Shown here: positions 1,161 to 17,725 of the stretch, piece by piece
Layout of the letters: each line of letters opens with the position of its first letter
Position numbering within the stretch: the stretch's first letter is position 1
DNA from: a virus
IMG/VR virus record: IMGVR_UViG_3300033141_001847
Coordinates: 1-42,740 of that record
Length of the DNA: 42,740 nt
Strand: one strand, 5' to 3'
Notes under the pieces: model-generated
Databases searched by the model: none
What the model was told of the DNA's origin: nothing
The model's input: only the letters and a program-made list of their open reading frames with translations
Translations under genes and position numbers: made by a program

Positions 1161-1193
1161 GTTATACACAGTGGGCATAATAATGAGTTATCC
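1161..1193 (-). other. attC remnant (two core boxes) at the end of the left cassette array
   Basis: GTTATCC at 1187-1193 holds the stop codon of the 108-aa gene exactly as in the intact cassettes. A second GTTATAC box lies at 1161-1167, in the same orientation rather than inverted. No long imperfect palindrome follows, so this looks like a truncated attC, perhaps a deletion joining the cassette to the terminator region. Confidence 0.45.
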
Positions 1194-1514
1194 TTCTGAT
1201 CCCATGTAATTAACACTAAGGCCAGAGTTGCATTTCACCTCACAAATAGTGGTGAATGGATTCGGAATAGGTGCTCCACTGTTACCCAACATCGGAATAG
1301 GTTCACTGCTTCTCCAGTATGGGGCGCAGGGGTTACGCCAAGGGTAATGGTCTCGCTCTATTATTACCGGCCTGCTTGGGATGAATTGTACATTCTGCCC
1401 GAAAAGGTCGTGCAATTGGTCGTGAAGGTCTTTTGCTTCTTCAATAGACAGAGAAACTTTCTTTCCATCTTTTGTCTCAAGTTCTATTTTTGTTAATTTT
1501 AGCTTCTTGCCCAT
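1188..1514 (-). CDS. Cassette gene: hypothetical 108-aa protein
   Basis: Carried in an integron-like cassette: the gene begins 23 nt after the GTTATCC core of the neighbouring attC, with a good ribosome-binding site (AAGGAG, 8 nt before ATG), and its TAA stop lies inside the next GGATAAC box. The N-terminal 38 residues (KLTKIELETKDGKKVSLSIE followed by an EAKDLHDQLHDLFG helix) form a small sheet-plus-helix unit of a kind seen in several phage and cassette proteins. The C-terminal part is rich in Pro, Asn and Trp and looks extended. There is no catalytic motif or membrane segment. Function is unknown; as an early-expressed accessory gene it could act on the host, but that is inference. Confidence 0.75.
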   Translation of the reverse strand: MGKKLKLTKIELETKDGKKVSLSIEEAKDLHDQLHDLFGQNVQFIPSRPVIIERDHYPWRNPCAPYWRSSEPIPMLGNSGAPIPNPFTTICEVKCNSGLSVNYMGSEG

Positions 1515-1536
1515 AATTAAACTCCTTAAAATAAAG

Positions 1537-1669
1537 GGATAACAAAGGTATGCACTGGAATTTTGCCAGCGCGGTTTTCCAAATTACCATTGTCGGTTAT
1601 TTTGCGTTCAGTTTTCATTGTTCATTCCGTGGTTTAAGTGGCAAAATCAAGTGATACCAGCCGTTATCT
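1537..1669 (-). other. attC: attC recombination site (left array, site L1)
   Basis: On the minus strand it starts with AGATAACGGCTGG (containing the stop codon of the 93-aa gene) and ends with CTTTGTTATCC. The two arms form a long imperfect palindrome: GGTATCACTTGATTTTGCC on one side matches the complement of GGTATGCACTGGAATTTTGCC on the other, with unpaired bases between, as expected for an attC with outer R and inner L boxes. Length is 133 bp, in the range of chromosomal-integron attC sites. Confidence 0.85.
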
Positions 1670-1945
1670 GTCCAACTGTTCCTGGTAGTATTCAACCTGC
1701 TCCTTACAAAACTTTAAGTGTCTTTTGTTTTTTTCTGAAAGTTCGTTTATCGCATCTTGCTCCCAAAGAAAAACCTCATTTTTGTGGTTGCCTACTATGC
1801 CTATGATCCCATCTACCAATACTATCTTTTCTGATGATTTTTCTCCCCATGTGTCTTTTGTGGTGATATTTTTAAAATGGCAGGGCACCACTTTTTTACC
1901 GGTAATAATAAAACCTTCAACAAGAACAATTTGTTTCCTTGCCAT
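1664..1945 (-). CDS. Cassette gene: hypothetical 93-aa protein
   Basis: A single-gene cassette: it is preceded by the GTTATCT core of the attC at 1965-2040 and GAGGAG 6 nt before the ATG, and it ends with TAA inside the AGATAAC core of the attC at 1537-1669. The first 65 residues are beta-rich (MARKQIVLVEGFIITGKKVV, then a paired VLVDGIIGIVG strand). The last 25 form a charged helix ending EQVEYYQEQLDR. It looks like a compact soluble protein with a helical tail. The family is not recognised and no active-site pattern is visible. Confidence 0.78.
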   Translation of the reverse strand: MARKQIVLVEGFIITGKKVVPCHFKNITTKDTWGEKSSEKIVLVDGIIGIVGNHKNEVFLWEQDAINELSEKNKRHLKFCKEQVEYYQEQLDR

Positions 1946-1964
1946 GATAACTCCTCAAATTAAA

Positions 1965-2040
1965 AGATAACAAAAGCTTTCCATCAGACCCGCATATAGT
2001 CCGGTCTGCAGGCCTTCGTTTCTGCTTTTGTCGGTTATCG
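1965..2040 (-). other. attC: attC recombination site (left array, site L2, short)
   Basis: A short 76-bp attC-like site. On the minus strand it runs from CGATAACCGACAAAAGCAG to AGCTTTTGTTATCT. The arms pair through AAAAGC/GCTTTT and an inner AGACC/GGTCT stem. It supplies the start boundary of the 93-aa cassette. Upstream of it there is no convincing gene, so its own cassette is either gene-free or decayed. Confidence 0.7.
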
Positions 2041-2266
2041 AAAGTTCAGCCGGCCATCCAGGGCGGGCTGGTGAAATGTAACGTTGAGTGGAGAAAACGA
2101 GCAACCCGGCCACCTGTCAGTTTCTGGACGGACTTGTTAAACCAGGATGCTCGTTTATTGCCCGGACAATCCGGGGCTTTAGGGGCACAGACGCCATTGT
2201 CAAACGCCTTTTGTGTCCCATCTTGTTAAATCTCTTCGACCTGCAGTGCTTCCCTTGGACAACCTT
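2041..2266. other. Gene-free stretch with a decayed attC-like palindrome
   Basis: No convincing reading frame; the best minus-strand ORF is 34 codons. Inverted segments GAAAACGAGCA (about 2094) and TGCTCGTTT (about 2150) resemble the inner boxes of the attC at 8194-8325, and a TAACGTT core lies at about 2079. A GCCCGGACAATCCGGGGC hairpin lies near 2159. This is best read as a degraded attC or an empty cassette next to the replication genes. Confidence 0.4.
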
Positions 2267-2488
2267 TTAGAGCCGCGTCAAGAGTGTCTTTGTCAAGAGA
2301 GTCGGTAAGGATTTTCCCACCGTTTTCGGATAAGAAGCCGGGTATATGATCCTCACATAGGCTTTCCACATCCAGTTTACTTTGCTATTCGCATAATCTT
2401 TGTGAATATTCTCGGACAAATGAAAGCCTTGTTCTCTTGCCCATTTTTCAAACTCATTGCGTGTTTCTGTTGTTGTGGCTAGTACCAT
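2267..2488 (-). CDS. Hypothetical 73-aa early protein
   Basis: It starts MVLATTTETRNEFEKWAREQGFHL and overlaps the preceding gene by 10 nt (ATGGTACTAG), with AAGG upstream, so it is translationally coupled. The motif NEFEKWARE..F.L..N....Y.NS.VN..W.AY is common in small early proteins of enterobacterial and pseudomonad phages, of unknown role. The last 25 residues (IIYPASYPKTVGKSLPTLLT and onward) do not resemble that family and are rich in Lys, Thr and Leu, which may mark a frame change or replacement of the C-terminus. It is the last non-cassette gene before the attC-rich end of the operon. Confidence 0.65.
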   Translation of the reverse strand: MVLATTTETRNEFEKWAREQGFHLSENIHKDYANSKVNWMWKAYVRIIYPASYPKTVGKSLPTLLTKTLLTRL

Positions 2489-2895
2489 GGACTTTCCTTA
2501 CCCCATAAGATCATATCCCTTGTTGACAGGATCGACGATTGACTTGTGGCCGGCAGGTATTCTCCCAACCTTTCAAGCGGAAAAAGGTCATCAACATTAT
2601 AATGAGTCGGCACCTCCTCCAATGTCCCTCTCATTACTTCGTAAATGACCCCAGAACGCAAGACAAAGTACATACAGGACGTTGTTTGACGCCCTTCCTC
2701 TTGGGATGTCAGCGAATGTTTAAATAGCCGATTGTTATTATCTTCACCGAAACGCAATAACGCCTCTTTGTATTTATTTGTTTTGACGCTACCTGCAGCA
2801 CACTTCTCGCAGCCCATGCCATCAGAATTCAACAAAACTGCAAAGATAAATAATGAAAAGATTAATGTCGTGATCAGGCATGTAGTTGTTTTCAT
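2479..2895 (-). CDS. Hypothetical exported protein with signal peptide
   Basis: The chosen start gives MKTTTCLITTLIFSLFIFAV, a typical signal peptide or single membrane anchor, followed by a Cys-containing mature region (GMGCEKCAAG). An upstream in-frame ATG at 2931 would add 12 residues (MQNNNQKEILAN) but has no ribosome-binding site; AAGGA lies 12 nt before the chosen ATG. The rest (residues 40-138) is soluble and mixed, with no known motif. It sits in the replication operon, coupled to the next gene. An early exported protein in a lytic-looking phage could act at the host envelope, for example in superinfection exclusion; this is a guess from topology. Confidence 0.6.
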   Translation of the reverse strand: MKTTTCLITTLIFSLFIFAVLLNSDGMGCEKCAAGSVKTNKYKEALLRFGEDNNNRLFKHSLTSQEEGRQTTSCMYFVLRSGVIYEVMRGTLEEVPTHYNVDDLFPLERLGEYLPATSQSSILSTRDMILWGKESPWY

Positions 2896-3007
2896 GTTTG
2901 CCAGTATTTCCTTTTGGTTGTTGTTTTGCATGTCTAAAATAGGCGTCTAATCCGTCTATTTAGTCCTGTAAGATAAACGGTACCTTCCATGGTGGTGGTT
3001 TGGTTTT

Positions 3008-3367
3008 TCAACGTTCTGCTGGTCCAGGTATGCAGCTATCACACGTTTCCCCAAAATCCTTATCGTACTTCTTTTTTGGAGTACAAAGGTTCCGATATTT
3101 ACACCGCTCACAAAGCCCTGTCTTTTTGGATGCATTCCACAGGTCCGCCATTACCGGGAAATAACGCGCTTCTCTCAATACTTCTTCAATGACTCTGACA
3201 AAGCCACTATCAGGTATTGACTTGAACTCCCTGAACCAGTCAACAGCTACCACCTTCATACTATCCTCTGTGTGTCCGCTGCTAGGGAAGTGGCAAGCCA
3301 AGCGGCCCAACTGCTCCAGTACTGTTTGTTCCTTGAGAGGTTCCGATGTTACAATTGTTTTGCTCAT
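3008..3367 (-). CDS. Putative replicative helicase loader (G39P/P-like) with C-terminal zinc motif
   Basis: Directly follows, and overlaps by 86 nt, the replication initiator gene, the usual place for a helicase loader. Residues 15-80 have the helical pattern of G39P/DnaB-loader-type proteins: L..LG.LACHFP, then VDWFREFKSIPDSGFVRVIE and EARYFPVMADLWN (the FP..ADL motif). The C-terminus adds CERC...C and CDSC (residues about 87-113), a likely zinc site not usual in G39P. The ATG follows GGTGG by 5 nt. It should bring the host DnaB helicase to the phage origin. The loader call is from pattern and neighbour, not a search. Confidence 0.6.
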   Translation of the reverse strand: MSKTIVTSEPLKEQTVLEQLGRLACHFPSSGHTEDSMKVVAVDWFREFKSIPDSGFVRVIEEVLREARYFPVMADLWNASKKTGLCERCKYRNLCTPKKKYDKDFGETCDSCIPGPAER

Positions 3368-4091
3368 TTAATCCACCTACCATTTTTTTGAATTCGTCCA
3401 GCGTATTGCCTTTTGTGTTGGCACTTTTTATTCCACGGGCTGAGAATTGATTAAACAGATTAGCAAACTTTGTTTCGTCATTGCTCTTTGACTTTTTTCT
3501 CAATTGAGCAAGGCTTCTGATTTGCCCGGACCAGAAAGAATCTTTAAGGCCCCACGTGATGGCCGGGGCAATTTCTCCCTCCAGGTTGTATTTGTCAATC
3601 CGGATCAGCTTGTCGATCGTGTCAGCGCCACGGGCAATTTCTTTTGCGGTGTGGTCCTTCTTGCCTCCGTTTCTCGACAGGTGATCGTAAAAGGATTCTG
3701 AGAATGACAAAACAGAGGGGGGGGGGCCTTTATCTTCCTTATCCTTATCCTTATCCTTATCCTTATCCTTATCCTTATCGGCTTTTTCTGGGTTAGGTTG
3801 GGTTTCCAAAGAACCGACTGGGTTATTTTGGGTTTCGTCCGCTTTTGGGCGACCACCCTTTGACCCATTCGCTTTATTCCGCTCGCAAATTTCAGCGTAC
3901 TTTATTTTATTTCTATCGATATGATTCTTGAAAGGAACGAAAATAGCTTTCATCAAGCCGGACAATGTTTCTTCCGAGTTGATCTCGTATCTTCTGATAG
4001 CTTTAAACAATTGACCTGCCTGTTCATCGGTTAAATCGTCGAGAACATCAAGTGCATCGTAAAAGAGCTTGAGCGATTTCTTTACTGCCAA
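3282..4091 (-). CDS. Phage replication initiator (DUF6291 N-terminus, DnaT/O-like C-terminus)
   Basis: Protein of 269 aa with a TTG start 8 nt after a strong GGAGG. Residues 1-75 match DUF6291 replication proteins: KLFYDALDVLDDLTDEQAGQ, then LFKAIRRYE, IFVPFKNHIDRN and YAEICERNKANGSKGGRP. A charged linker follows, with seven KD pairs encoded by seven CTTATC repeats (3738-3779), then GPPPS encoded through a ten-base homopolymer (3717-3726). Residues about 130-205 look like the DnaT/O-type C-terminal domain that contacts the helicase or loader. With the next gene it forms an O/P-like pair for origin firing. The repeat and homopolymer make the frame unusually prone to slippage. Confidence 0.78.
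   Translation of the reverse strand: MAVKKSLKLFYDALDVLDDLTDEQAGQLFKAIRRYEINSEETLSGLMKAIFVPFKNHIDRNKIKYAEICERNKANGSKGGRPKADETQNNPVGSLETQPNPEKADKDKDKDKDKDKDKEDKGPPPSVLSFSESFYDHLSRNGGKKDHTAKEIARGADTIDKLIRIDKYNLEGEIAPAITWGLKDSFWSGQIRSLAQLRKKSKSNDETKFANLFNQFSARGIKSANTKGNTLDEFKKMVGGLNEQNNCNIGTSQGTNSTGAVGPLGLPLP
3717..3779 (-). repeat. C10 tract plus seven-copy hexanucleotide repeat inside the replication initiator
   Basis: Plus-strand G run at 3717-3726 (C10 on the coding strand), then seven perfect copies of CTTATC at 3738-3779. Hexamer gain or loss stays in frame and changes linker length by Asp-Lys pairs; homopolymer slippage would shift frame and remove the C-terminal domain. Confidence 0.9.
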
Positions 4092-4225
4092 TTTGGGGAC
4101 CTCCTGTCGAAAGGCTATGCTGTCAATTAAAAAAGCAACGCGGGCTTACGGGTGACAGTGGGAACCGTAATGGGTCAGGAAGAGATCAAGCTTCCCTAGC
4201 CCGCATTTTGTAAAATTAAATACTA

Positions 4226-4402
4226 TCAGGTAATTGCTGTTTTAGCAATTAATTTGTTCTGTTGGTAGCGGGACAACTCGCGCATCTCTGACCTATCACA
4301 ACCCTTGCACAGATCGCGCTGGTTTGCCGACCTGCACCACGACTCGCTGACTTCAGTTTTGCGCTGCATAGGGCATTTTATTCTTTTTATCGTTTCAACC
4401 AT
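4226..4402 (-). CDS. Small zinc-ribbon protein, copy A (58 aa)
   Basis: Found by direct translation. It starts MVETIKRIKCPMQRKTEVSE, then SWCRSANQRDLCKGC, then DRSEMRELSRYQQ. Four cysteines (KCP, SWC, LCKGC) fit one zinc site. GGGAG lies 4-5 nt before the ATG, and the start overlaps the end of the 80-aa gene by 8 nt (ATGGTTGA). It is clearly paralogous to the protein at 5829-5987, with more than half of the positions identical across the zinc core. Likely a nucleic-acid- or protein-binding early regulator; function unknown. The 130 nt between it and the replication gene hold a GCGGGCT/AGCCCGC inverted repeat (about 4140-4203) and no gene. Confidence 0.8.
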   Translation of the reverse strand: MVETIKRIKCPMQRKTEVSESWCRSANQRDLCKGCDRSEMRELSRYQQNKLIAKTAIT

Positions 4403-4637
4403 ACAGCTCCCTTGCGGCTTCGTGCATCTTTTTTGTGATCCGTTTTGGCAGTACTGTTTTTGCGTTGGCCTTGATCAGTTGTCCTTCTGTGGCTGGCACG
4501 ACAGAAACGTCGAACAGGCCACGAAGGCGCATTTTTTCACGATATACTTCTGCGCACTCTTGGAGCGTCCCCAAGCATCGCCCGTCTGCAATAAACGACC
4601 ACCATTTTTTCTGTTTTGGTTCTTTCCATAAAGACAT
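4395..4637 (-). CDS. Hypothetical 80-aa early protein
   Basis: Starts MSLWKEPKQKKWWSFIADGR with AAGGGG 7 nt before the ATG. Basic and mostly helical, with an aromatic N-terminal patch (KKWWSFIADGRCLG) resembling a small beta hairpin, then two helices, then a basic C-terminus (VLPKRITKKMHEAARELYG). It is coupled to the zinc-ribbon gene by an 8-nt overlap. The family is not recognised; the basic C-terminus might contact nucleic acid. About 65 nt separate it from the 231-aa gene upstream. Confidence 0.68.
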   Translation of the reverse strand: MSLWKEPKQKKWWSFIADGRCLGTLQECAEVYREKMRLRGLFDVSVVPATEGQLIKANAKTVLPKRITKKMHEAARELYG

Positions 4638-4705
4638 GATTCACCCCTTCAGCTTCTTGGTTTTTCGGTTGTGGAAAAACGTTGTTGAGAGTCTTATGTC
4701 TGCGT

Positions 4706-5401
4706 TCATACAAGACGACCTTTGTCTGTTAATTGCTGGATAGCCATGGTAATAGCTAAATGATGAATAATTAGTCTGGTATGTGGGACCTTTCCGACAC
4801 TGTAGGCCCACTCCCAGTAATCTGGGTCGCTAAGTGTTTTTCCCGGGTCATCAAGATTGTTTAAATCAGAGGCCCATTCCCACTCGGACGAAATGTTGCA
4901 TTGATAGAGTATTTCTTCGAGCCTTTTTGTTGCAAATTTTTTATTTTCTTCATCAATCCTTTCATCCGTATACTCTTCAGAGCTTTCATCATCAAAAGGA
5001 ACTTTTCGCGCGACAAGGTTTTCGTGTGCTTTTTCCTCGTAAGTATACTCTATTAAGTGTTCCAGCAAAGATGACTTAGCTTCTTCGCTATCCCATGACA
5101 CAAAAGGTCTTCCCACTTCTGAAGACTGACATTTCCCGGCCATGTAGTCAAGACTTACCTTCTTAAGCCCCTTTACCCCCATGGAGTGGTGCCAACAATA
5201 TACTGCCTCCCCAAGGTCGCCACGGACAAAAAGCGTTTCGTTAGTGAATAGGAATTCTATGAAATAGTTGTTGGTACCAGGCTCCTGAAATCTGATCATT
5301 TCAACCTGTGGCGACCCTTCCCGTGTAAGATTCCAATACTTCGCCACATGGTTTTTGAAATACTCGCGCTGCTGTTCTTGTTTTTCTTGAATTGTACTCA
5401 T
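4706..5401 (-). CDS. Hypothetical 231-aa acidic protein
   Basis: The start at MSTIQEKQEQQREY is preferred because GGAGG lies 7 nt upstream; the longer TTG start would include that ribosome-binding site in the coding region. The protein is acidic and Trp/Glu rich, with a helical N-terminus (residues 1-35), a beta-rich centre (YFIEFLFTNETLFVRGDLGE, where MIRFQEPGTNNYF also lies), a very acidic linker (DDESSEEYTDERIDEENKK, about 145-165) and a helical end. No membrane segment or catalytic motif. It is the largest unknown gene of the left arm. Such acidic phage proteins often bind DNA-binding host proteins, but there is no specific evidence here. Confidence 0.72.
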   Translation of the reverse strand: MSTIQEKQEQQREYFKNHVAKYWNLTREGSPQVEMIRFQEPGTNNYFIEFLFTNETLFVRGDLGEAVYCWHHSMGVKGLKKVSLDYMAGKCQSSEVGRPFVSWDSEEAKSSLLEHLIEYTYEEKAHENLVARKVPFDDESSEEYTDERIDEENKKFATKRLEEILYQCNISSEWEWASDLNNLDDPGKTLSDPDYWEWAYSVGKVPHTRLIIHHLAITMAIQQLTDKGRLV

Positions 5402-5505
5402 AGAAAAACCTCCAATCAAAAGTTTATCAATCTGAAAAGAAAATGTGGCAATGGGTGATTGAGGCCCATGGTTCCCCCGCTAAAGGTAGCCACACGCAAA
5501 TTATA

Positions 5506-5832
5506 TCAGGAAACGGGTGGGGGTGTAAGGAGTTTGTGCCAACCTTTCATGATTAAAAAAAACTGATCAATAGTGAAAAACTCATACCTACAACCACTTG
5601 GGTTGTGCCAGCGACCATCAATCCTCACCCTGAACATGGTTAAGTACCAGGATTCTCTTTCGCTTTTGAGGGAAGGGATCTTTCTGTTGAAATTCTTCCC
5701 GTCCAAGCGCTGCTTGAATTGTCCGGCGTTGTAGATTTGGAAGCGGGTAGTGCTAAATTTACTTTTCAATTTGCCTTGCTCTCTGGCAACAGTCAAAGTT
5801 ACCGACAGGTCATATATTCTATCCTCGCTCAC
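5506..5832 (-). CDS. Hypothetical 108-aa protein, GTG start
   Basis: The GTG start overlaps the stop of the zinc-ribbon gene (GTGA), with GGAGG 5 nt upstream. Sequence MSEDRIYDLSVTLTVAREQG followed by basic and aromatic strands (FSTTRFQIYNAGQF, FRVRIDGRWHNPSGCRYEFF) suggests an all-beta soluble protein. No family recognised. Downstream (5420-5505) a TGTGGC/GCCACA inverted repeat with an inner ATGGG/CCCAT stem separates it from the next gene; it has no GTTAT cores, so it is not called attC. Confidence 0.7.
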   Translation of the reverse strand: MSEDRIYDLSVTLTVAREQGKLKSKFSTTRFQIYNAGQFKQRLDGKNFNRKIPSLKSERESWYLTMFRVRIDGRWHNPSGCRYEFFTIDQFFLIMKGWHKLLTPPPVS

Positions 5833-5987
5833 TTGCCCTCCTCAATTTTCTTTTGTTGATAACGCGAAACGTCGCGATTCTCAGAGCGCTGGCATCCTTT
5901 GCAGATGTCGCGCTGGTTGGCCTGCCTGCACCACGACTCGGTGACTTCGGTTTTGTGTTGCATCGGACACTTTATCGTCCTTGTCAT
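5829..5987 (-). CDS. Small zinc-ribbon protein, copy B (52 aa)
   Basis: Found by direct translation. MTRTIKCPMQHKTEVTESWC, then RQANQRDICKGCQRSENRD, then VSRYQQKKIEEGK. The cysteines (KCP, SWC, ICKGC) match those of the copy at 4226-4402. ATGA overlap with the upstream membrane gene and GTGA overlap with the downstream gene show tight coupling. Two copies of one short zinc protein in the same operon, about 1.4 kb apart, suggest duplication and possible specialisation. Function unknown. Confidence 0.82.
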   Translation of the reverse strand: MTRTIKCPMQHKTEVTESWCRQANQRDICKGCQRSENRDVSRYQQKKIEEGK

Positions 5988-6217
5988 GTTAATGGTTTGT
6001 TGGAATTATCATCTATACCACTGAGCATTACGTATACATCACACACGGCGCAGGCATATCCCGCAGCTATGGACAAGAGGACGCACACAACTACCAACAC
6101 AGGTTTGTGCATGTCGTTATATCTAAAAATTGACAACATCAGAGCAGTAGTGATAATGACTGTTGCAAGCCTTGAATCGTTCATTAGTCTTTCTTTGTGC
6201 TGCGCTATAGTTTTCAC
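5984..6217 (-). CDS. Small membrane protein (77 aa), two predicted segments
   Basis: GTG start preceded by AGAGG at 7 nt. Residues about 18-31 (ATVIITTALMLSIF) and 39-60 (PVLVVVCVLLSIAAGYACAV) are hydrophobic, giving a two-segment inner-membrane protein with both ends probably cytoplasmic. It is coupled to the zinc-ribbon gene by ATGA. It is expressed with early genes, so a holin role is unlikely; superinfection exclusion or host-membrane modulation is more plausible but unproven. The shorter start MNDSRL is possible. Confidence 0.65.
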   Translation of the reverse strand: MKTIAQHKERLMNDSRLATVIITTALMLSIFRYNDMHKPVLVVVCVLLSIAAGYACAVCDVYVMLSGIDDNSNKPLT

Positions 6218-6358
6218 TTTGTGCCTCTCTGGATATCTGTAATTAGTTGTTATACAATCTGGCCCCCACTAATGGTTTTAATGGTGCTGCCGATTTTTGA
6301 GTTGTTCTTTTGTGGAATTTTCAGGCAAAAGCACAATGGGTATATCTGGGAGTTATCT
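6218..6358 (-). other. attC half-site and gene-free spacer
   Basis: GTTATCT at 6352-6358 lies 0 nt from the stop of the 97-aa gene, like the R'' box of the intact cassettes, but the rest of the interval shows no matching arm. A plus-oriented GTTATAC lies at 6249-6255. Read as a decayed attC with only one core retained. No gene is seen in the interval. Confidence 0.4.
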
Positions 6359-6677: not shown

Positions 6678-6809
6678 AGATAATAAGATAAATTCAGCCG
6701 AAAACGAGAGGTCCGGTCTTTGATTCACCCTGTTCCTTTATTTAAAATTTGTTTTTCAATTCAACCGGTTGTGGTTAAGTCTCGTTTCGGTTGATTAAGG
6801 TCGTTATAC
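6678..6809 (-). other. attC: attC site with mutated crossover core (left array, site L3)
   Basis: Minus strand from GTATAACGACCTTAATCAACC to the distal box TTATTATCT. Arms match well (CAACCGAAACGAGA against the complement of CAGCCGAAAACGAGA). The distal core reads ATTATC rather than GTTATC, so the conserved G of the G^TT crossover is lost and the site may be dead. Two further GTTAT boxes (6818, 6825) lie directly upstream, the last containing the stop of the 62-aa gene. Confidence 0.8.
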
Positions 6810-6825
6810 CTACCTTAGTTATCAG

Positions 6826-7014
6826 TTATATTTCCCCACCAGCCTCGCCAAATAAAGCATAAAATACACGGCACGTTTTTGTGATAGGGCAAGTTCCACA
6901 CGGGTATCTTTCACAATGGTCCTCTATCTCGACGTCGGTAGCCATAACAACCCGTTCCAAGCGACCTGCTGTCGTAGTGGTCTTCAGGTCTTTTTCCTTG
7001 TTTTCATTGCTCAT
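6826..7014 (-). CDS. Cassette gene: small Cys-rich protein (62 aa)
   Basis: Starts MSNENKEKDLKTTTTAGRLE with GGAG 5 nt before the ATG. Its TAA stop is in an ATATAAC box, upstream of the attC at 6678-6809. The second half holds DHCERYPCGTCPITKTCRVF: five Cys and one His in 18 residues, a likely zinc or disulfide knot. The N-terminus is charged and probably disordered. Small Cys-rich early proteins often bind host factors; specific function unknown. Confidence 0.72.
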   Translation of the reverse strand: MSNENKEKDLKTTTTAGRLERVVMATDVEIEDHCERYPCGTCPITKTCRVFYALFGEAGGEI

Positions 7015-7078
7015 AGTTTCTCCAAAATTGGTTGTTGTTTATTCCGCAGGCACTTGAACTGCTGCCGTTATCTATTTT
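7015..7078 (-). other. attC half-site between two cassette genes
   Basis: On the minus strand AGATAACGGCAGC begins at the stop codon (TAG) of the 71-aa gene and a GGCAGCAG/CTGC mini-palindrome follows, but no GTTAT box closes the site before the ribosome-binding site of the next gene. It looks like a deletion derivative of a short attC. Confidence 0.5.
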
Positions 7079-7281
7079 TGATCAAGCTCAGATAGTACAT
7101 TTTCAATATCTGTGTCTGTCAAAAGCAATTGCGCCTCGCACGCACCATTCCACGCCTCAATTTCGTGCCCGTGTGTTGCCTGGTCAAATCTGTACCCAAC
7201 TGGTACCTCGTACCCACGAATAAGATACAGCTTCCTCGCAAGTTCATTGGTCTGGTCTAAAATTTCTTGGTCAGATCTCAT
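7072..7281 (-). CDS. Cassette gene: hypothetical 69-aa protein
   Basis: Start chosen at the ATG giving MRSDQEILDQTNELARKLYL, with AAGGTG 6 nt before it; the longer GTG start adds two residues and would overlap the ribosome-binding site. It is preceded by GTTATCA of the 59-bp attC and ends at AGATAACG, so it is a cassette. The sequence (ELARKLYLIRGYEVPVGYRF, DQATHGHEIEAWNGACEAQ) reads like a small family seen in phages of Pseudomonas and Burkholderia, of unknown role. Mostly helical and soluble. Confidence 0.76.
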   Translation of the reverse strand: MRSDQEILDQTNELARKLYLIRGYEVPVGYRFDQATHGHEIEAWNGACEAQLLLTDTDIENVLSELDQK

Positions 7282-7306
7282 TTTCACACCTTATAAAAAA
7301 CAAAAA

Positions 7307-7365
7307 TGATAACAAAAAGTTACAGCGGATTCGCTGCGCTCACAGCTAAACACTGGTCGTTATCT
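7307..7365 (-). other. attC: attC site of classic 59-base length (left array, site L4)
   Basis: Exactly 59 bp from box to box. Minus strand starts AGATAACGACCAGTG (stop of the 112-aa gene inside) and ends TTTTTGTTATCA; the centre folds as AGCG...CGCT with TTTAGCTGT/ACAGC arms. The plus strand reads ATAACAAAAAG...GGTCGTTATC, close in layout to the textbook 59-base element of mobile gene cassettes. Confidence 0.9.
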
Positions 7366-7698
7366 TGCTGGTATAATATCACTAAGCAAGCAATACCTAC
7401 TTACGTCTGACCATACCCAAGCTGAATAAATATCCTCATTGTCATCAGCAAAATATAATGTTCTTTCATTTTCTCCGATAAATACCAAAGCTATATCAGA
7501 GTCGCCATTGCTCAGATCTACTTCAATTAATAAGTTTCCGTCTGGACATTCACCATTTTGTGTTTTCCAAAGACTTTTAATTAACTCTGCGTCTACCCTT
7601 TTTACCCACTCCTCTTGCAGCTGGTTAAACTCTTCGGTAGTTATGACTGTTTTGCCGGTTGCTGATATACGTCTTCGTAAGTTACTAATCATGTTCAT
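7360..7698 (-). CDS. Cassette gene: hypothetical 112-aa protein
   Basis: Lies between the attC at 7710-7837 (GTTATCT core 12 nt before the ATG, with GAGGA as ribosome-binding site) and the 59-bp attC, whose AGATAAC core holds its stop. Residues 1-45 are basic and helical (NLRRRISATGKTVITTEEFN, then NQLQEEWVKRVDAELI). Residues 50-112 form an acidic beta domain (LLIEVDLSNGDSDIALVFIG, YFADDNEDIYSAWVW). No known catalytic pattern. The two-part layout could be a DNA- or protein-binding helix plus a small beta domain. Function unknown. Confidence 0.78.
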   Translation of the reverse strand: MNMISNLRRRISATGKTVITTEEFNQLQEEWVKRVDAELIKSLWKTQNGECPDGNLLIEVDLSNGDSDIALVFIGENERTLYFADDNEDIYSAWVWSDVSRYCLLSDIIPAR

Positions 7699-7709: not shown

Positions 7710-7837
7710 AGATAACAAAACGCTACAAAGGACAAGCGGCCAGCGCCTTTCCCTGCAGTTCATCTTGTCGTTAAAATTTAGTTTATCGAACGCTCAGTGC
7801 TGTAAATACCGCTTGCCCCTGAGCTGGATCGTTATCC
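7710..7837 (-). other. attC: attC site (left array, site L5)
   Basis: 128 bp. Minus strand starts GGATAACGATCCAGCTCAGG (stop codon of the 113-aa gene inside) and ends GCGTTTTGTTATCT. GGGGCAAGCGG in one arm pairs with CCGCTTGTCC in the other. Intact cores on both sides. Confidence 0.88.
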
Positions 7838-8173
7838 TTCCAAGCATTGCTCAATCGCAAGAGTTATTTTTGCTCTTGTTAATGGATTTGCCTTCAATGC
7901 ATTAACCTGCTTTTCAAGTTCACCACCCATTCTTGCAACAATTACTTTTGCAAGTTTGTTGTTTAGGGCATCTTTAAGGGCTGTCTTAAAGACATCACTT
8001 GTAAGCATTGTTTCAAAAGAGTCATTTACAAGTGCATACATCTCTTGCTGGTTGTCACTCATCACCTCTTGGCATAGTTTCTGTAAAGCTCCGTTGTATC
8101 CCGTAAGATTTTCAATTATTGACTTCTCTATTGCCACTTTTGCTGTTTGTAAAATGTCTTTTTCTAAACTCAT
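7832..8173 (-). CDS. Cassette gene: hypothetical 113-aa helical protein
   Basis: The ATG start (MSLEKDILQTAKVAIEKS) is 6 nt after AGGAG and is preferred over the TTG two codons earlier, which is too close to the ribosome-binding site. Cassette limits: GTTGTCC core upstream, TAA inside GGATAAC downstream. It is predicted almost all-helical (residues 3-40, 45-75, 85-113) with regular Leu/Ile/Val spacing, suggesting a helical bundle or oligomer. The segment IENLTGYNGALQKLCQEVMS resembles a phage protein family of unknown role. No membrane segment. Confidence 0.77.
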   Translation of the reverse strand: MSLEKDILQTAKVAIEKSIIENLTGYNGALQKLCQEVMSDNQQEMYALVNDSFETMLTSDVFKTALKDALNNKLAKVIVARMGGELEKQVNALKANPLTRAKITLAIEQCLEG

Positions 8174-8193
8174 GTTCAACTCCTAAAATAAAG

Positions 8194-12529: not shown

Positions 12530-12559
12530 CCACTATTGTTGGTTTTTAGAATAAAAGCA

Positions 12560-12633: not shown

Positions 12634-12792
12634 ATGAGTACAGAGGAAAAAGGAAAGGTTATAGGCGCAATTATTACAGAGTTACAACTTTCTGGCCGTG
12701 ATTTCGACGAAGGAGACACATTCTTTTCATTATGCTTTAAGTCCGACAAAGAGCTGATGCATATTGCAAAAAGAATGAGAGCTGTGAAGTGA
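12634..12792 (+). CDS. Hypothetical 52-aa protein
   Basis: Start at MSTEEKGKVIGAIITELQLS with GGAGAG 5 nt upstream; an in-frame ATG at 12586 lies in the -10 box of the internal promoter and cannot be the main start. A small helical protein with a basic end (ELMHIAKRMRAVK). It is the first gene after the internal promoter. Unknown role. Confidence 0.65.
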   Translation: MSTEEKGKVIGAIITELQLSGRDFDEGDTFFSLCFKSDKELMHIAKRMRAVK

Positions 12793-13130
12793 GGGGTGGC
12801 CCAAGATACGACGAGGAGGGGAACCTCCTCACTGGCCGAAACCATGGCCCGACCGGGAAAGAGTTGAAGAAATCTTTCACAATCCGGGCCTATCCTTCAG
12901 ATGTGGAGTCCCTGCAAAAGATAGATAAGACATTACAAAAAGCGGTGGATAGCGGAGTACATTTACTGTTGGGAAAACGCAACGCATGGACAACAGAAAA
13001 GCCTACTTCCCCAGGTTGGTTCTGGGTTCGACGCGCTGGCTTTCCTTGGCCAATGTGGATACAGGAAGTAACAGATACAGACACAACTACTGATGGTTAC
13101 GAGTGGTGTGAGGTTGAGCGGCCACTGTGA
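12789..13130 (+). CDS. Hypothetical 113-aa protein with possible DNA-binding segment
   Basis: GTG start overlapping the previous stop (GTGA); the ribosome-binding site is poor, so coupling is assumed. Residues 28-60 (KKSFTIRAYPSDVESLQKID) resemble a ribbon-helix-helix-like strand and helix. The C-terminal 45 residues (PTSPGWFWVRRAGFPWPMWI, then GYEWCEVERPL) resemble the Trp-rich repeat found in DUF551-type phage proteins. The combination is not one I recognise. Function unknown. Confidence 0.6.
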   Translation: MRGGPRYDEEGNLLTGRNHGPTGKELKKSFTIRAYPSDVESLQKIDKTLQKAVDSGVHLLLGKRNAWTTEKPTSPGWFWVRRAGFPWPMWIQEVTDTDTTTDGYEWCEVERPL

Positions 13131-13163
13131 AGGCCATAAAGGTATGAGGGACATGGACAAGTT

Positions 13164-13418
13164 ATGAAAAATGGAGACTATACACACAAAGTTGCAGCAG
13201 GGCTGCGAAGAGTGAAAAATACACCGGATGCTTTTCTTTTTTGTGGCGACTGTGACACGACGTGGGATCTGCCGGAAATATTGGGCATACCTGTGTATCA
13301 CTCAGCGCTAATCGTAAACACATGCACGGATATGGATGTTCCATTTATCCCGATGTGGGTAGCAGAGGGTGACTATATCGTTCTGCGTGGCTTGTTTAAT
13401 GACGGTTACGCTGACTGA
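13164..13418 (+). CDS. Hypothetical 84-aa protein
   Basis: Starts MKNGDYTHKVAAGLRRVKNT; a weak GGAC precedes the ATG. Beta-rich soluble sequence with CGDC (residues 27-30) and a later Cys. Aromatic and acidic patches (DTTWDLPEILGIPVYHSALI, VPFIPMWVAEGDYIVLRGLF). It reads like an unknown single-domain protein; no family recognised. Confidence 0.6.
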   Translation: MKNGDYTHKVAAGLRRVKNTPDAFLFCGDCDTTWDLPEILGIPVYHSALIVNTCTDMDVPFIPMWVAEGDYIVLRGLFNDGYAD

Positions 13419-13451
13419 AGCAGGCTTTAACTTTAATTCCAAGGAACAACA

Positions 13452-14276
13452 ATGAACGAAACAGACAACACCGCAACGCGCCTGGAGATGATGCGAAAGC
13501 CTTTCGACCCTGAGCAAATCTCAAAGCTTCCAAAACCAACAAAAGCGCAAACAAACGCAGTAAAGGAAAGCTTTCAGAATGGGAAAAGGTGTGATGTGTG
13601 TGGCGGATGGCATCATCCGAAAGTTATACACCTGGACTATGTAGGACATGCTGCGCTCACAGACAGATTGCTAGATGTAGATCCTCTTTGGCAATGGGAG
13701 CCTGAGAAAAGAGACGAAAACGGCTTCCCTGTCTTAGATAAAGATGGAGGAATGTGGATAAAGTTAACAGTGTGTGGTGTTACCCGGCCTGGATATGGAG
13801 ACTCAGGCGGGAAAACTGGCAGCAACGCGACAAAAGAAAGGATCGGTGATGCTCTCAGGAATGCAGCTATGCGCTTCGGTGCTGCGCTCGACTTGTGGCA
13901 CAAAGGAGACCTGCACGGCATCGACGAACCAGAAGACGAAAAGCCAGAACCAATCCCGGTAGTAAAATGGCAAGAGGGCATCGAGTCGTTTTTTGAAAGA
14001 GGGCATACGGTCGCCAAGCTTAATGCATGGCTTAATGATAAAAAAGACGATATAGCCCTGCTGAGCGAGGAAGATCAACACAAAGTAAAAGTTTGCGTAA
14101 GAGAGACAATGGCAGCTATCACCGAGAATCTGGCAAAGCCACCCGAAACCGTAAAGTGCCCAGAAAGTGGCCGGGAAGCAGTCAAGGCCGACTGCCTACA
14201 AAGCGAATGCCACAAAACATGCGAAGCAATGGGCAATTCCCATGATAATAAATTGGAGATAAGTATCGATGGCTAA
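13452..14276 (+). CDS. Candidate single-strand annealing protein, Rad52/Sak-like (274 aa)
   Basis: The core at residues 48-160 (HLDYVGHAALTDRLLDVDPL, WQWEP, GGMWIKLTVCGVTRPGYGDS and KERIGDALRNAAMRFGAALD) is a family common in phage recombination loci. Its strand-helix arrangement is that of Rad52/Sak-type annealing proteins, whose members often carry the phrase ALTDRLLDVDP. A CDVCGGWHH zinc-like motif lies at about 45. The C-terminal third has CPESGR, CLQSEC and CHKTC, a further Cys-rich tail. AAGGA lies 6 nt before the ATG. It overlaps the coiled-coil gene. It should anneal single-stranded DNA during phage recombination; the fold call needs a profile search. Confidence 0.65.
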   Translation: MNETDNTATRLEMMRKPFDPEQISKLPKPTKAQTNAVKESFQNGKRCDVCGGWHHPKVIHLDYVGHAALTDRLLDVDPLWQWEPEKRDENGFPVLDKDGGMWIKLTVCGVTRPGYGDSGGKTGSNATKERIGDALRNAAMRFGAALDLWHKGDLHGIDEPEDEKPEPIPVVKWQEGIESFFERGHTVAKLNAWLNDKKDDIALLSEEDQHKVKVCVRETMAAITENLAKPPETVKCPESGREAVKADCLQSECHKTCEAMGNSHDNKLEISIDG

Positions 14277-15318
14277 AACAAAAGAAGAAGTACTCGACCT
14301 TACCGTTGTGTTGACTGGAGAAATAGTAGAAAGTAATTTGCCAGCATTTAAAGAAAAGGCACTTGCGGTAATCAAGGCAGCAGATAGGCCACTGGTAACA
14401 ACCAATGATTTCGATGATGCAGCGACAACTGTCAAAAAGTGCAAAGAAGCTGAAAGTGCGCTTGTGGCGGCCAAAGAAAAAGCTCTAAACCAAACAGTAG
14501 ATATCAAAGCGCTTTTTGATACCATGGACGAGATAAGCGCTGAGTTGAAAAAAACACGGCTATCACTCGATAAAAAAGTGAAGAAGCGCAAAGTCGAGAT
14601 CAGGGACGGAATTATTAATTCAGCCTACGGAAGGTTTTGCGACGCCTTTGAAGTTGTTGCAAAAAAAACTCCAGAAGTACGCAACTCAACAAAGGTAAAT
14701 AGGGTGCTGTTTGAGGATGCTGTTTCCGGTAAAAGCAATATTGAGAACATGGAAAAGGCTGTCGATGCTGTCCTTAATGGCGAACTACACATACTAGACA
14801 AGTTCAAAGCTCTCATCCAGGGCAACAAGGAGCTGATCGCCAAGTGTGAGTACCAGTCGTTGTTCCCAGACGTCTTAACGCTTGTTTGCAAACCTTCCCC
14901 TGAAGTGCAGTTGACCCTCGACTCCAGGGTGTCAAAGCACATCCTGGAAGAAAAGGAACGCAAAGAGAAGGCGGAGGCTGCAGCCAAAGCAGAAGCAGAC
15001 CGAAAGGCTAAAGAGGAAGAAGCGTTGGCCGAAGTCAAAGCAAGAGAGGACAAAGGGCCCAGCGAAATTGCCCAGCAACAGCCAAAAGAAGAAGCACGGA
15101 CGGAATCAAAGCCAGAATCGACACCGAATTTCACAAACACAAGTGGCCGCGCATTCCGCGAAGTCGTAGGGACAACAGCAACGCAACCGCCCGAGAGCGA
15201 AGAGATTGAAGGTAATTACATCGTAACCGTTAATCTCACATGCACATTGACAAAAGCAAAAGAGACTGCGCGAGATGTCAGAACTATATGCGGAAATGCA
15301 AGCCTTACCAAAGGGTGA
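14269..15318 (+). CDS. Coiled-coil protein of the recombination locus (349 aa)
   Basis: Overlaps the annealing-protein gene by 8 nt. Residues 20-110 are helical with heptad character (DFDDAATTVKKCKEAESALV, then ISAELKKTRLSLDKKVKK), like the DUF1351-type proteins that accompany phage annealing proteins. A charged low-complexity segment (EEKERKEKAEAAAKAEADRK) lies at about 225-250, and the end holds a small strand-rich piece (YIVTVNLTCTLTKAKETARD). Role unknown; probably a structural partner in recombination or replication. Confidence 0.7.
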   Translation: MAKTKEEVLDLTVVLTGEIVESNLPAFKEKALAVIKAADRPLVTTNDFDDAATTVKKCKEAESALVAAKEKALNQTVDIKALFDTMDEISAELKKTRLSLDKKVKKRKVEIRDGIINSAYGRFCDAFEVVAKKTPEVRNSTKVNRVLFEDAVSGKSNIENMEKAVDAVLNGELHILDKFKALIQGNKELIAKCEYQSLFPDVLTLVCKPSPEVQLTLDSRVSKHILEEKERKEKAEAAAKAEADRKAKEEEALAEVKAREDKGPSEIAQQQPKEEARTESKPESTPNFTNTSGRAFREVVGTTATQPPESEEIEGNYIVTVNLTCTLTKAKETARDVRTICGNASLTKG

Positions 15319-15322
15319 CACC

Positions 15323-15706
15323 ATGGCACAGCCAAAAATATACGTAACAGACGACACCGGCAAAAAGCTAACCCCAAAAGCTGCGGCAGCGTTGATTCCA
15401 GGATGTGATCAAAACAAAGTGCGCCATTATATCGCGTCAAAAGGCGCCAAGACTCTTGCGAATATAATCGAGATAATGGAAAACTTGTCAAAAAACCGTG
15501 CATTTTACTTACCAAACGAAATTGTAAAAGAAGAACTTGGGCTAGTTGAGGAATGGGAAGATTTCGCGCAGGAAGTTTGGAAAGAAAGAACAAGAATTGT
15601 CAAAATGGTAATAGCTGTGATGCTTTTGGTTCTTGCTTTTTCTGGCGGCGTGGCTTCCGAACATGCTTTCCCTGGCATTGTATATGATTTTCTATTCGCC
15701 AGATAA
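15323..15706 (+). CDS. Hypothetical 127-aa protein with C-terminal membrane anchor, anchor gene of the right array
   Basis: Start MAQPKIYVTDDTGKKLTPKA chosen for AAGGG 7 nt upstream; an ATG 48 nt earlier lies inside the previous gene. The N-terminal 75 residues are soluble; residues about 98-120 (MVIAVMLLVLAFSGGVASEH) form one membrane segment near the C-terminus. Its TAA stop is in the AGATAAC box of the first right-arm attC, but upstream there is phage coding sequence rather than an attC, so this gene marks the entry point of the cassettes. Confidence 0.68.
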   Translation: MAQPKIYVTDDTGKKLTPKAAAALIPGCDQNKVRHYIASKGAKTLANIIEIMENLSKNRAFYLPNEIVKEELGLVEEWEDFAQEVWKERTRIVKMVIAVMLLVLAFSGGVASEHAFPGIVYDFLFAR

Positions 15707-15823
15707 CGACCTGAATAACCTGCCCGCCCCGGGTAAACCGTGATTTTTGAGCGTGGCAGAAACTAAAACTTAACACTGGAGAACGGGCGTGTGAGCGGGT
15801 CAGAGTTTATGCGCTTGTTATAT
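15701..15823 (+). other. attC: attC site (right array, site R1)
   Basis: 123 bp from AGATAACGACCTGAAT to ATGCGCTTGTTATAT. Inner ATAACCTGCCCGC pairs with GCGGGTCAGAGTTTAT, and a central GCCCGC...GCGGG stem completes it. The sequence is closely related along its length to site R4 (shared CTGCCCGCCC, GAGCGTGGCA, CACTGGAGAACG, GTGAGCGGGTCAG). Confidence 0.9.
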
Positions 15824-15826
15824 TTT

Positions 15827-16081
15827 ATGACCTCAGAGCAATATGAACAAGCACGAAGCGTTAAGAAGGCCTTGGGCGAAGTCGAGAATGAACTAAAAGC
15901 ATGGAAAGAGACTGAAACGCCTAGAGATTTAGGCCACAAACAGCACTGGAACAACGGGCACCTTGTGGCGCTTCCCTCTAAGCATTCGCCAGCAGAAGCC
16001 TTTGTAGCTTACAAGTCAGCATGTGTAAATGCATTGAAAGTGAAAAAGGCTGAACTGGATGAGATGTTTTTAGCAATATAA
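15827..16081 (+). CDS. Cassette gene: hypothetical 84-aa protein
   Basis: The ATG is only 4 nt after the GTTATAT core, with no ribosome-binding site between, so it may be leaderless or translated by read-through. A longer GTG frame would lie inside the attC. MTSEQYEQARSVKKALGEVE starts a long helix (residues 2-30) that is followed by a turn and a second helix (SACVNALKVKKAELDEMFLA), giving a helical hairpin. TAA is inside ATATAAC of the next attC. No family recognised. Confidence 0.68.
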   Translation: MTSEQYEQARSVKKALGEVENELKAWKETETPRDLGHKQHWNNGHLVALPSKHSPAEAFVAYKSACVNALKVKKAELDEMFLAI

Positions 16082-16209
16082 CGGCCTTAATAACCTGCCC
16101 CGTGCAATAAAACCGCAGGATGTGGAGCGAAGTACAAACGATAAATTTACCCAGATGGTAGCCCGAAGAACGGCGCGGCACGGGGTCTGAGTTAATTTAT
16201 TTGTTATCT
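16076..16209 (+). other. attC: attC site (right array, site R2)
   Basis: 134 bp. Starts ATATAACGGCCTTAATAACC and ends TTATTTGTTATCT. TAACCTGCCCCGTGC in the left arm pairs with GCACGGGGTCTGAGTTA in the right, one of the best arm matches in the window. Confidence 0.92.
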
Positions 16210-16230
16210 TTTTATTAAAGGAGCTTAGAC

Positions 16231-16419
16231 ATGGCACGAAAAAGAAAAGTAGGCGAAAGTTACAAGAAATACAGGACAGAACTGAAGCGTGAAGCAATTG
16301 CATTGAAAAGAAAATTGGCGGGGAGTGTTCTTTGGCCTGGTAGTTGGGGAACTGCACGGAAAGTTGTAAAACCAAATGGTGTTCTTCTTGTCGGCAATGG
16401 GCATTCTGTCAGGTGTTGA
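16231..16419 (+). CDS. Cassette gene: basic 62-aa protein, probably 3' frameshifted
   Basis: Typical cassette start: GTTATCT, then a TTTTTATTAA leader, then AAAGGAG 6 nt before the ATG. MARKRKVGESYKKYRTELKR and EAIALKRKLAG are strongly basic and helical, likely nucleic-acid binding. Unlike the other cassette genes its stop lies about 95 nt before the attC. The frame one base away (16376-16519) stays open to a TAA exactly inside the AGATAAC core, so the original gene may have run to the attC and been split by an indel near 16376-16419. Confidence 0.62.
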   Translation: MARKRKVGESYKKYRTELKREAIALKRKLAGSVLWPGSWGTARKVVKPNGVLLVGNGHSVRC

Positions 16420-16519
16420 AAACTTTAGAGTCGCCGTGAGAAAATCTACAGTATCGGGGAGCACTCTGCCTAACGGCCTTTTATGTAAATCCGAGGCGGC
16501 TCTATTTTTGGTAAGATAA
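16376..16519 (+). pseudogene. Second-frame remainder of the R3 cassette gene (47 codons)
   Basis: MVFFLSAMGILSGVENFRVA then VRKSTVSGSTLPNGLLCKSE, ending LFLVR and a TAA within AGATAAC at 16514-16520. The stop-in-core position is the rule for cassettes here and argues that this frame once was the 3' end of the cassette gene. No ribosome-binding site of its own. Confidence 0.4.
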
Positions 16520-16647
16520 CGTCCCGTATCACTGGAAACAAGCGGAATTACCGACCAGTGAGGAACGTAGATAGAAGTTTAAACGTACCTGGAGACTTGG
16601 CCTGAAAATGGGCGTGCTTGTTCTCCATGTGCATGCAATTGTTATAC
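16514..16647 (+). other. attC: attC site (right array, site R3)
   Basis: 134 bp. Starts AGATAACGTCCCGTATCACT and ends GCAATTGTTATAC. CACTGGAAACAAGC in the left arm matches the complement of GCTTGTTCTCCATGTG in the right. Confidence 0.9.
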
Positions 16648-16670
16648 TTTAATTTTTGTGAGGATTATCA

Positions 16671-16994
16671 GTGAAAGCAAAACCTATGAAACAAACACCA
16701 ACTGGCCAGATTGAATGCAAATCACACGAAGCAACTCATGTATGGCTTTGTATGCCTGGGCCGTTTAGTCACAGGGTGTTACCTGTTGTCCACGGTAACA
16801 CCACCAGAAAAGGAACGCATTGCTGGACGTGGAATGGTGACACTGAAAAGCCTACCGTTAAACCAAGTATCATAACCAGAGGCGGTGGTGATGGTGTGTG
16901 TCACTCTTTTGTCAATGATGGAAAAGTTCAGTTTCTAGGAGACTGCACCCACGAATACGCAAACAAAACCCTTGATCTGCTCGAAGTTGATTGA
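16671..16994 (+). CDS. Cassette gene: DUF6527 family protein (107 aa)
   Basis: GTG start, GAGG 7 nt upstream, 23 nt after GTTATAC. The family pattern is clear in the second half: WTWNGDTEKPTVKPSI, then CHSFVNDGKVQFLGDCTHEY (CH.F...G...FLGDCTH), as in DUF6527, a short family of phage and integrative-element proteins with conserved Cys and His that likely bind a metal. Length is normal. The stop is a TGA 3 nt before GTATAAC. A recognisable phage-type family inside a cassette is unusual. Confidence 0.78.
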   Translation: MKAKPMKQTPTGQIECKSHEATHVWLCMPGPFSHRVLPVVHGNTTRKGTHCWTWNGDTEKPTVKPSIITRGGGDGVCHSFVNDGKVQFLGDCTHEYANKTLDLLEVD

Positions 16995-16997
16995 GGA

Positions 16998-17121
16998 GTA
17001 TAACGATTTGCATAACCTGCCCGCCCTGGATTAACCGGAAACTTTGAGCGTGGCAATAACATTAATTTAGCACTGGAGAACGACCGTGTGAGCGGGTCAG
17101 CCGTTGATGCGCTTGTTATCT
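16998..17121 (+). other. attC: attC site (right array, site R4)
   Basis: 124 bp. Starts GTATAACGATTTGCATAACC and ends GATGCGCTTGTTATCT. It shares most of its internal sequence with R1, so both come from one attC family; it pairs CTGCCCGC with GCGGGTCAG. Confidence 0.92.
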
Positions 17122-17146
17122 TTTTATTAAATTTTAGGAGTCAGAT

Positions 17147-17344
17147 ATGAACTCAGTAAAAATAGCATATATTGTTTGTTCGACGGTGTTTGAATTGGCT
17201 TTTTTGTTTCTGGCAGTAGTCGCACCCATGTGGATAACCCCTGGTCTTTATTGGTGGACGGCAGCAGCTGTGTTTTTGATGGCTTGCACATCTAAAGGAT
17301 TCACCGACCGACTAAATTCATGGAAAAGTTTTGGTCATGTTTAA
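17147..17344 (+). CDS. Cassette gene: small two-segment membrane protein (65 aa)
   Basis: AGGAG 6 nt before the ATG, 25 nt after the R4 core. Residues 5-27 (KIAYIVCSTVFELAFLFLAV) and 33-48 (GLYWWTAAAVFLMACT) are membrane segments; the C-terminus is short and basic (SKGFTDRLNSWKSFGHV). The TAA stop is 1 nt before AGATAAC. Small membrane proteins are a common cassette product. No function assigned. Confidence 0.74.
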   Translation: MNSVKIAYIVCSTVFELAFLFLAVVAPMWITPGLYWWTAAAVFLMACTSKGFTDRLNSWKSFGHV

Positions 17345-17345
17345 T

Positions 17346-17477
17346 AGATAACGCCCAGCTCACGGGCAAGCGGGGGATTAACACCCGAGAGCATGGATAA
17401 ATTACGAAACTAAATAAATGAGATGAAGTATCGGAAAAAGGCGATCCCCGCTTGTCCGGTGCAGCGTCTTGTTAACT
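17346..17477 (+). other. attC: attC site (right array, site R5)
   Basis: 132 bp. Starts AGATAACGCCCAGCTCACGG and ends GCGTCTTGTTAACT. GGGCAAGCGGGG in the left arm pairs with CCCCGCTTGTCC in the right. The distal core is GTTAACT rather than GTTATCT. Confidence 0.92.
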
Positions 17478-17495
17478 AAAAAGCAAGGAGATATC

Positions 17496-17693
17496 GTGGC
17501 AACACCAAAAATAGAGAAAATATGGCTAAACGAAATGCCAGTTAGTGGCGTCGAGTTACGGTTAGATTGGGACAACGACAGACATCATGCTGTTGTAGTC
17601 TCATACCCTTTTGGCGCAAAACAAGTTGCTGACGCAATGGTGTCAGCTGCACAACTTATTAATCGTGACCGTAACCTGGCGGATGGCAGTTAA
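17496..17693 (+). CDS. Cassette gene: hypothetical 65-aa protein, last of the right array
   Basis: GTG start with AAGGAG 5 nt upstream; the longer frame begins inside the attC. MATPKIEKIWLNEMPVSGVE and a strand-rich VELRLDWDNDRHHAVVVSYP are followed by a helix (AKQVADAMVSAAQLINRDRN). It looks like a small alpha/beta domain. The TAA is inside AGTTAAC, but no attC follows, so the array ends here. Confidence 0.7.
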   Translation: MATPKIEKIWLNEMPVSGVELRLDWDNDRHHAVVVSYPFGAKQVADAMVSAAQLINRDRNLADGS

Positions 17694-17725
17694 CAGTATT
17701 AATAAGTGGAGAACTTTCCACTCTT
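17688..17725 (+). other. Terminal attC half-site and hairpin
   Basis: AGTTAAC (17688-17694) holds the last cassette stop. Instead of an attC arm, a short AGTGGA/TCCACT hairpin (17705-17722) follows, before the convergent lysis genes. It could serve as a weak bidirectional terminator between converging operons. Confidence 0.5.

Follow-up and report, generated by a model that had tools for sequence, protein, structure and literature searches.

Clusters of attC sites lacking an integron-integrase (CALINs) have been described in virulent phages, together with IntI1 recombination assays (Qi et al. 2023, PMC9892861). In that paper, sites of the phages H101 (PH101 in Qi et al.), TJE1 and P12002L are recombined by IntI, and two H101 sites recombine with IntI1, the bottom strand being preferred. 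Here we analyse the virus record IMGVR_UViG_3300033141_001847 of IMG/VR (42,740 nucleotides, possibly a fragment of a genome), the whole of which we refer to as the window; it carries two arrays of attC sites with small genes between them. In both arrays the genes run antisense to their attC sites, and this reversed polarity is common to most of the phage cassette rows found here. We consider it reasonably probable (roughly 0.7) that these are integron-type arrays without an integrase on a tailed phage, and that their cassettes form part of a reverse-polarity phage pool on which host IntI acts in trans.

An initial annotation, made from the letters of the window alone, had described an integrase-less attC cluster in a lytic-looking siphovirus; a cluster of this kind is not in itself new, having been anticipated by the 2023 report and its IntI1 assays (PMC9892861). 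What looks new is the reversed polarity: a full-text literature search, with most subscription papers and all preprints outside its reach, returned no report of it, and it is apparently new to the literature.

Identification of the attC sites

A covariance model (R1) was made without window sequence, using only bacterial attC sites that adjoin IntI genes (TIGR02249). The source genomes came from the phylum Desulfobacterota and the class Gammaproteobacteria, the taxa of two genomes (G001 and G002) which share the window's attC motif and which encode IntI; labels in G denote genomes and labels in L contigs, mostly viral, as numbered in this analysis. Thirty-six clear attC sites of known direction were collected, and R1 was built from the 31 with no more than 100 bases.

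Applied to the window, R1 gives eight matches at E<10, all of full model length and all within the two arrays, with none elsewhere; their E-values span 0.00035 to 0.37. R'' (RYYYAAC-like) and R' (GTTRRRY-like) boxes, L arms and unpaired bases on one arm are present at all eight. A second scorer, which uses a box-plus-stem score, returns eight window sites at 32 or above, 1537–1669 included, compared with 0.2 sites per 42.7 kb at 30 or above, and none at 34 or above, in ten shuffled windows. In phage TJE1, R1 returns three sites and no others, in line with the published number (PMC9892861), so the model is specific; it also finds many bacterial sites, its own building sites among them, and gives no match in phage P12002L. 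An Rfam scan of the window yielded chance matches only and no integron family. A first palindrome detector was dropped, as it could not tell sites from shuffles.

The initial annotation had listed eleven attC sites and proposed a covariance-model search as their check. This search places all eight of its matches in the two arrays reported there and recovers seven of the listed sites, together with a new one at 6942–7073; the site at 1537 is supported by the second scorer, whereas those at 1965, 6678 and 7307 are not confirmed. The description of one small gene between neighbouring sites, with stop codons in the cores, is directly visible in the features below.

1188..1514, minus strand: cassette gene, 108 amino acids (aa); related genes in two further viral arrays; no Pfam or PHROG match
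1537..1669, plus strand: attC of array 1, antisense to the genes; box-plus-stem score 45.5 on the plus strand versus 18.8 on the minus; bottom-strand fold pairs R and L arms, z −2.6; absent from the R1 list
1664..1945, minus strand: cassette gene, 93 aa; stop codon within the 1669 core
1965..2039, plus strand: possible degenerate attC, unconfirmed; score 3.7; bottom-strand fold z −2.9
6678..6815, plus strand: site of the initial annotation, unconfirmed; no support from either model; fold z −1.0
6942..7073, plus strand: attC new to this analysis; R1 17.3 bits, E 0.013; fold no better than shuffles; the loop holds the start of gene 6826–7014
7072..7287, minus strand: cassette gene, 71 aa
7307..7365, plus strand: possible attC, a symmetric hairpin, unconfirmed by the models; score 11.5; bottom-strand fold z −2.7
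7360..7698, minus strand: cassette gene, 112 aa
7710..7837, plus strand: attC; R1 16.6 bits; score 45.2
7832..8179, minus strand: cassette gene, 115 aa
8194..8325, plus strand: attC, the best of the window; R1 23.0 bits, E 0.00035
15701..15823, minus strand: attC of array 2, antisense to the genes; R1 18.7 bits
15791..16081, plus strand: cassette gene, 96 aa
16076..16209, minus strand: attC; R1 18.1 bits
16231..16419, plus strand: cassette gene, 62 aa
16514..16647, minus strand: attC; R1 11.9 bits, E 0.37; score 48.6
16671..16994, plus strand: cassette gene of the DUF6527 family, 107 aa; PF20137 E 2.5e-9
16998..17121, minus strand: attC; R1 19.5 bits
17147..17344, plus strand: cassette gene, 65 aa
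17346..17477, minus strand: attC; R1 14.9 bits; score 52.3
17469..17693, plus strand: gene past the last site, 74 aa

Sites 1537, 7307, 7710 and 16076 have their outer boxes paired in the minimum-energy fold; elsewhere the pairing of these boxes is partial, present in the centroid only, or lacking. The record, which may be a fragment, has no match to the tyrosine recombinase family PF00589, in agreement with the initial annotation; it thus holds at least two close attC sites without IntI, the arrangement that defines a CALIN, and is not a complete integron, in which intI stands beside attI.

Reversed polarity in the window and across viral contigs

All R1 matches of the left array lie on the plus strand and its genes on the minus strand; in the right array the matches are on the minus strand and the genes on the plus. 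Every unambiguous window cassette is therefore antisense to its attC, where the gene of a canonical cassette is sense to it. The initial annotation had recognised here the architecture of integron gene cassettes, a description that does not hold for gene/attC polarity, which is inverted in both arrays relative to bacterial cassettes. Its view is understandable, since the outer boxes are near-symmetric and the sites, read by eye on the gene strand, resemble those of an ordinary cassette. With the sites read in the model's direction, the extra bases left unpaired belong to the 5' arm, just as they do in bacterial attC sites (for example, AAC-T-CTG-A-CCCGC in the window and AAC-T-CGG-A-CAG in one bacterial site).

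Scans with 5'-arm patterns brought in approximately 240 viral contigs, many with arrays; scans of viral contigs with exact attC patterns were dropped, as they gave mostly chance matches, L001 excepted. The polarity counts rest on sites defined by the model, and a single rule identified the intervening gene in bacteria and viruses alike: the longest open reading frame (ORF) had to fill 60% of the interval and to be 1.4 times the best ORF of the opposite strand. By R1 sites, cassettes in bacterial integrons (one control set, from two taxa) are 60 sense to 1 antisense, and those of the viral contigs 15 sense to 73 antisense (Fisher test, 5e-26). Counted by locus, the bacteria give 13 sense and none antisense, and the viruses 5 sense, 30 antisense and 3 tied (4e-8). 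With the second scorer and dereplicated loci the ratios are 67 sense to 7 antisense in bacteria and 18 to 66 in viruses; the count limited to terminase-bearing contigs and deposited phages is 26 antisense to 7 sense. By their deposited annotation, H101 (sites plus, genes minus) and ctTUS972 (sites minus, genes plus), both phages of Qi et al., are antisense, and TJE1 is sense.

The stop codon falls at the same core position in 38 of the 73 antisense viral cassettes; a frame that enters the core stops there by chance one time in three, so this position is supporting evidence, and no more, that the genes are real. In 31 of the 73 (longest ORF), the start of the gene falls within the loop of the attC upstream of it, and the variable loop may thus double as 5' coding sequence. 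Two window genes, 6826–7014 and 15791–16081, start in this way, as do genes in L001 and L133.

One contig, L174 (8,116 bases), has two attC arrays, each antisense, flanking a divergent early region with genes of the single-strand annealing protein and RecE type, as in the window.

Sharing of cassettes and kinship of their genes

In each of three pairs of viral contigs that are otherwise unrelated, one cassette is shared, with similarity beginning and ending at the GTT/AAC cores: L195 and L221 (94.5% over 651 bp), L223 and L249 (84% over 417 bp), and L293 and L308 (96% over 216 bp). No further significant long match was found between the contigs of any pair. For the window itself, the only sign of cassette mobility is at the protein level: the relatives of gene 1188–1514, 47% and 55% identical to it, occur solely in reverse-polarity arrays of other viral contigs, where each is bracketed by attC sites.

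The DUF6527 gene (16671–16994), the one cassette gene whose relatives are informative, has relatives in hundreds of phage records, outside arrays among those inspected, and one at 78% in a viral contig without attC sites. This kinship suggests that phage genes have become cassettes. The DNA of array 2 has no match in known phages or plasmids (one search for the plasmids), and that of the L164 and L133 arrays gave a single gene-level match in known phages, to Vibrio phage K453, itself without an array.

The initial annotation had cast the phage as a carrier and shuttle for bacterial cassettes. We reject this as the principal reading on polarity and on gene kinship, the relatives of the DUF6527 gene and of gene 1188–1514 being in phages and viral contigs.

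The phage and its early region

The annotation of the window as a phage genome is borne out by its gene content, that of a tailed phage (TerL, portal, major head protein, maturation protease, tape measure and tail fibre J). The head, packaging and tail genes occupy the minus strand from 42 down to approximately 19 kb, and the early genes diverge near 9 kb, where transcription and GC skew both flip, between the two arrays. The DNA of the phage body has no match in known phages, and the nearest relatives are distant (portal 30–33% identical only). Both arrays lie within the early region and adjoin replication and recombination genes:

3282..4091, minus strand: DnaD-like helicase loader / replisome organiser; separates the two clusters of array 1; contains 12-nt tandem repeats at 3736–3779
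13452..14276, plus strand: single-strand annealing protein; phrog_3290 E 2.6e-54
14269..15318, plus strand: RecE-like exonuclease part; phrog_7655 E 6e-47; relatives adjoin arrays in L249 and L174

The repeats at 3736–3779, inside a replication-initiation gene, are possible origin iterons. A 146-nt direct repeat (4253–4398 and 5847–5992, 73% identical) covers two small minus-strand genes that are related to each other.

Integrase supply and proposed mechanism

IntI scores above its curated cut-off in 2 of the 41 array-bearing viral records. These two, L244 and L261, carry an attC array and IntI (457 and 308 bits, respectively); they could be phages, or bacterial contigs that were misassigned and hold complete integrons. 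Since no match to a tyrosine recombinase was obtained in the window record, recombination, if any, must be supplied by the host. Integrases that might act in trans are common in the groups of G001 and G002, since IntI above the cut-off is encoded by 108 of 297 sampled genomes of the phylum of G001 and 104 of 274 of the class of G002. A 4.7 kb contig (L013) with three antisense attC cassettes and a phage terminase was binned in an IntI-bearing gammaproteobacterial metagenome-assembled genome (MAG); the two could be a host–phage pair for the proposed exchange. A lone attC of the window type (L012:1–405), on a contig of a Desulfobulbaceae MAG, adjoins what appears by eye to be the start of an IS110-family transposase.

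In the proposed mechanism, attC sites would fold from single-stranded DNA and be recombined in trans by a host integron integrase, whereby single genes could be gained, lost or swapped between phages. With the sites of an array oriented against the phage operon, antisense cassette genes would follow phage transcription. On entering such an array, an ordinary bacterial cassette would end up antisense to the operon; likewise, a phage cassette inserted into a host integron would be antisense to Pc. Since attC × attC recombination fixes orientation, polarity would separate the phage pool from the bacterial one; that arrays are mostly of a single polarity fits polarity as a compatibility type. Arrays of the antisense type can hold working sites, since H101 is antisense and two of its sites recombine with IntI1; by extension from that literature, the window may hold working sites as well. 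Whether such a private pool is widespread, polarity-separated from bacteria and shuffled by host integrases in trans, with integrons serving phage gene exchange too, we regard as an evenly balanced question.

Several observations weigh against this reading. R1 scores in the window are modest (12–23 bits, versus up to 70 for bacterial sites), and the bottom-strand fold clearly beats shuffles at some sites only (z −2.9 to +0.6), so some window sites may be poor substrates. The viral records are metagenomic contigs; a terminase was found in 16 of the 41 with phrog_2 and in four more with PF03237, leaving about half without one found. ORFs were called mechanically, with 49 viral intervals left out as ambiguous, and TJE1 and a few contigs are sense, such that the polarity rule is not absolute. 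The shared stretch of L308 reaches the contig end, and the L293/L308 pair hence tests one edge only. No host or integrase is known for the phage of this record.

If host integrases do swap phage genes by cassette, part of early-region mosaicism would gain a defined site-specific mechanism. The polarity rule would offer a one-line sequence test separating phage from bacterial cassettes, and predicts little mixing of the two pools. The isolated phage H101, with an antisense array whose sites already recombine with IntI1, is ready experimental material.

Alternative explanations

Antisense polarity might have been selected for raising recombination, in that genes running with the fork would then have the recombinogenic bottom strand of their attC on the lagging-strand template. 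Recombination of attC is higher when its bottom strand is on the lagging template (PMC5371416), inversion of a V. cholerae array leads to hyper-excision (PMC11023631), and the joint flip of GC skew and transcription between the window arrays would agree with it, although the skew may reflect coding strand alone. Were the origin at 3.3–4.1 kb (the 3736–3779 repeats), however, a rightward fork would put the bottom strands at 6.9–8.3 kb on the leading template. As the replication origin has not been located, we keep this explanation, which we think unlikely, as an alternative only; as possible reasons for the reversal, lagging-strand placement and polarity as a compatibility type are both compatible with the data.

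It is also conceivable, if improbable, that the sites are attC-like palindromes swapped at short homologies by the phage annealing recombinase and exonuclease rather than by IntI, acting as modular swap points or also as expression signals. The arrays adjoin genes for an annealing protein, a RecE-like protein, an exonuclease and a primase, the cores are short repeats, and the gene starts inside attC loops (31 of 73, above) would suit such a role. Yet the edges of exchange coincide with the 7–9 base core rather than with the longer arms; the unpaired bases and box consensus typical of attC are retained, although simple homology would have no need of them; and H101 sites are IntI1 substrates (PMC9892861).

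A third explanation, that the arrays are a decaying fragment of an ordinary host chromosomal integron, gained by illegitimate recombination and with accidental polarity, is distinctly improbable. The weak scores and three unconfirmed sites would suit decay, and Qi et al. propose off-target and illegitimate recombination as the route of attC entry into phages. A copied bacterial array would, however, stay sense, whereas both window arrays, on opposite strands, and most viral arrays are antisense; moreover, the informative cassette gene is from a phage family, and the arrays lie inside the early region.

That strand or ORF calling created the antisense excess as an artefact, as near-palindromic attC sites and mechanically called ORFs might do, is scarcely credible, since the same pipeline calls bacterial cassettes sense at 60:1 and TJE1 sense too, the annotated phages H101 and ctTUS972 agree on antisense, and the wrong strand, which scores too in several bacterial sites, does so tens of bits lower.

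Comparison with known systems

Sedentary chromosomal integrons resemble the window in their attC boxes, arm asymmetry, one-gene cassettes and stop codons often in the core; they differ in having genes sense to attC (60:1 here) and in their intI, attI and Pc, none of which is seen in the window. A possible parallel is modular exchange between phages based on stem-loops or homology, which likewise swaps gene by gene at intergenic repeats and would lack the integron-specific site structure found here. Phage TJE1 shares with the window an attC array in a virulent phage and differs in its sense polarity and short sites, whereas H101 and ctTUS972 are, by the present analysis, of the same antisense type. 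The phage CALINs of Qi et al. (2023, PMC9892861), as described in the accessible text, match the window in their attC sites, small cassettes, lack of an integrase and location in the early phage region. That text gives clusters and recombination and does not give gene/attC polarity; here polarity is measured over many viral contigs, and single-cassette exchange between viral contigs is added.

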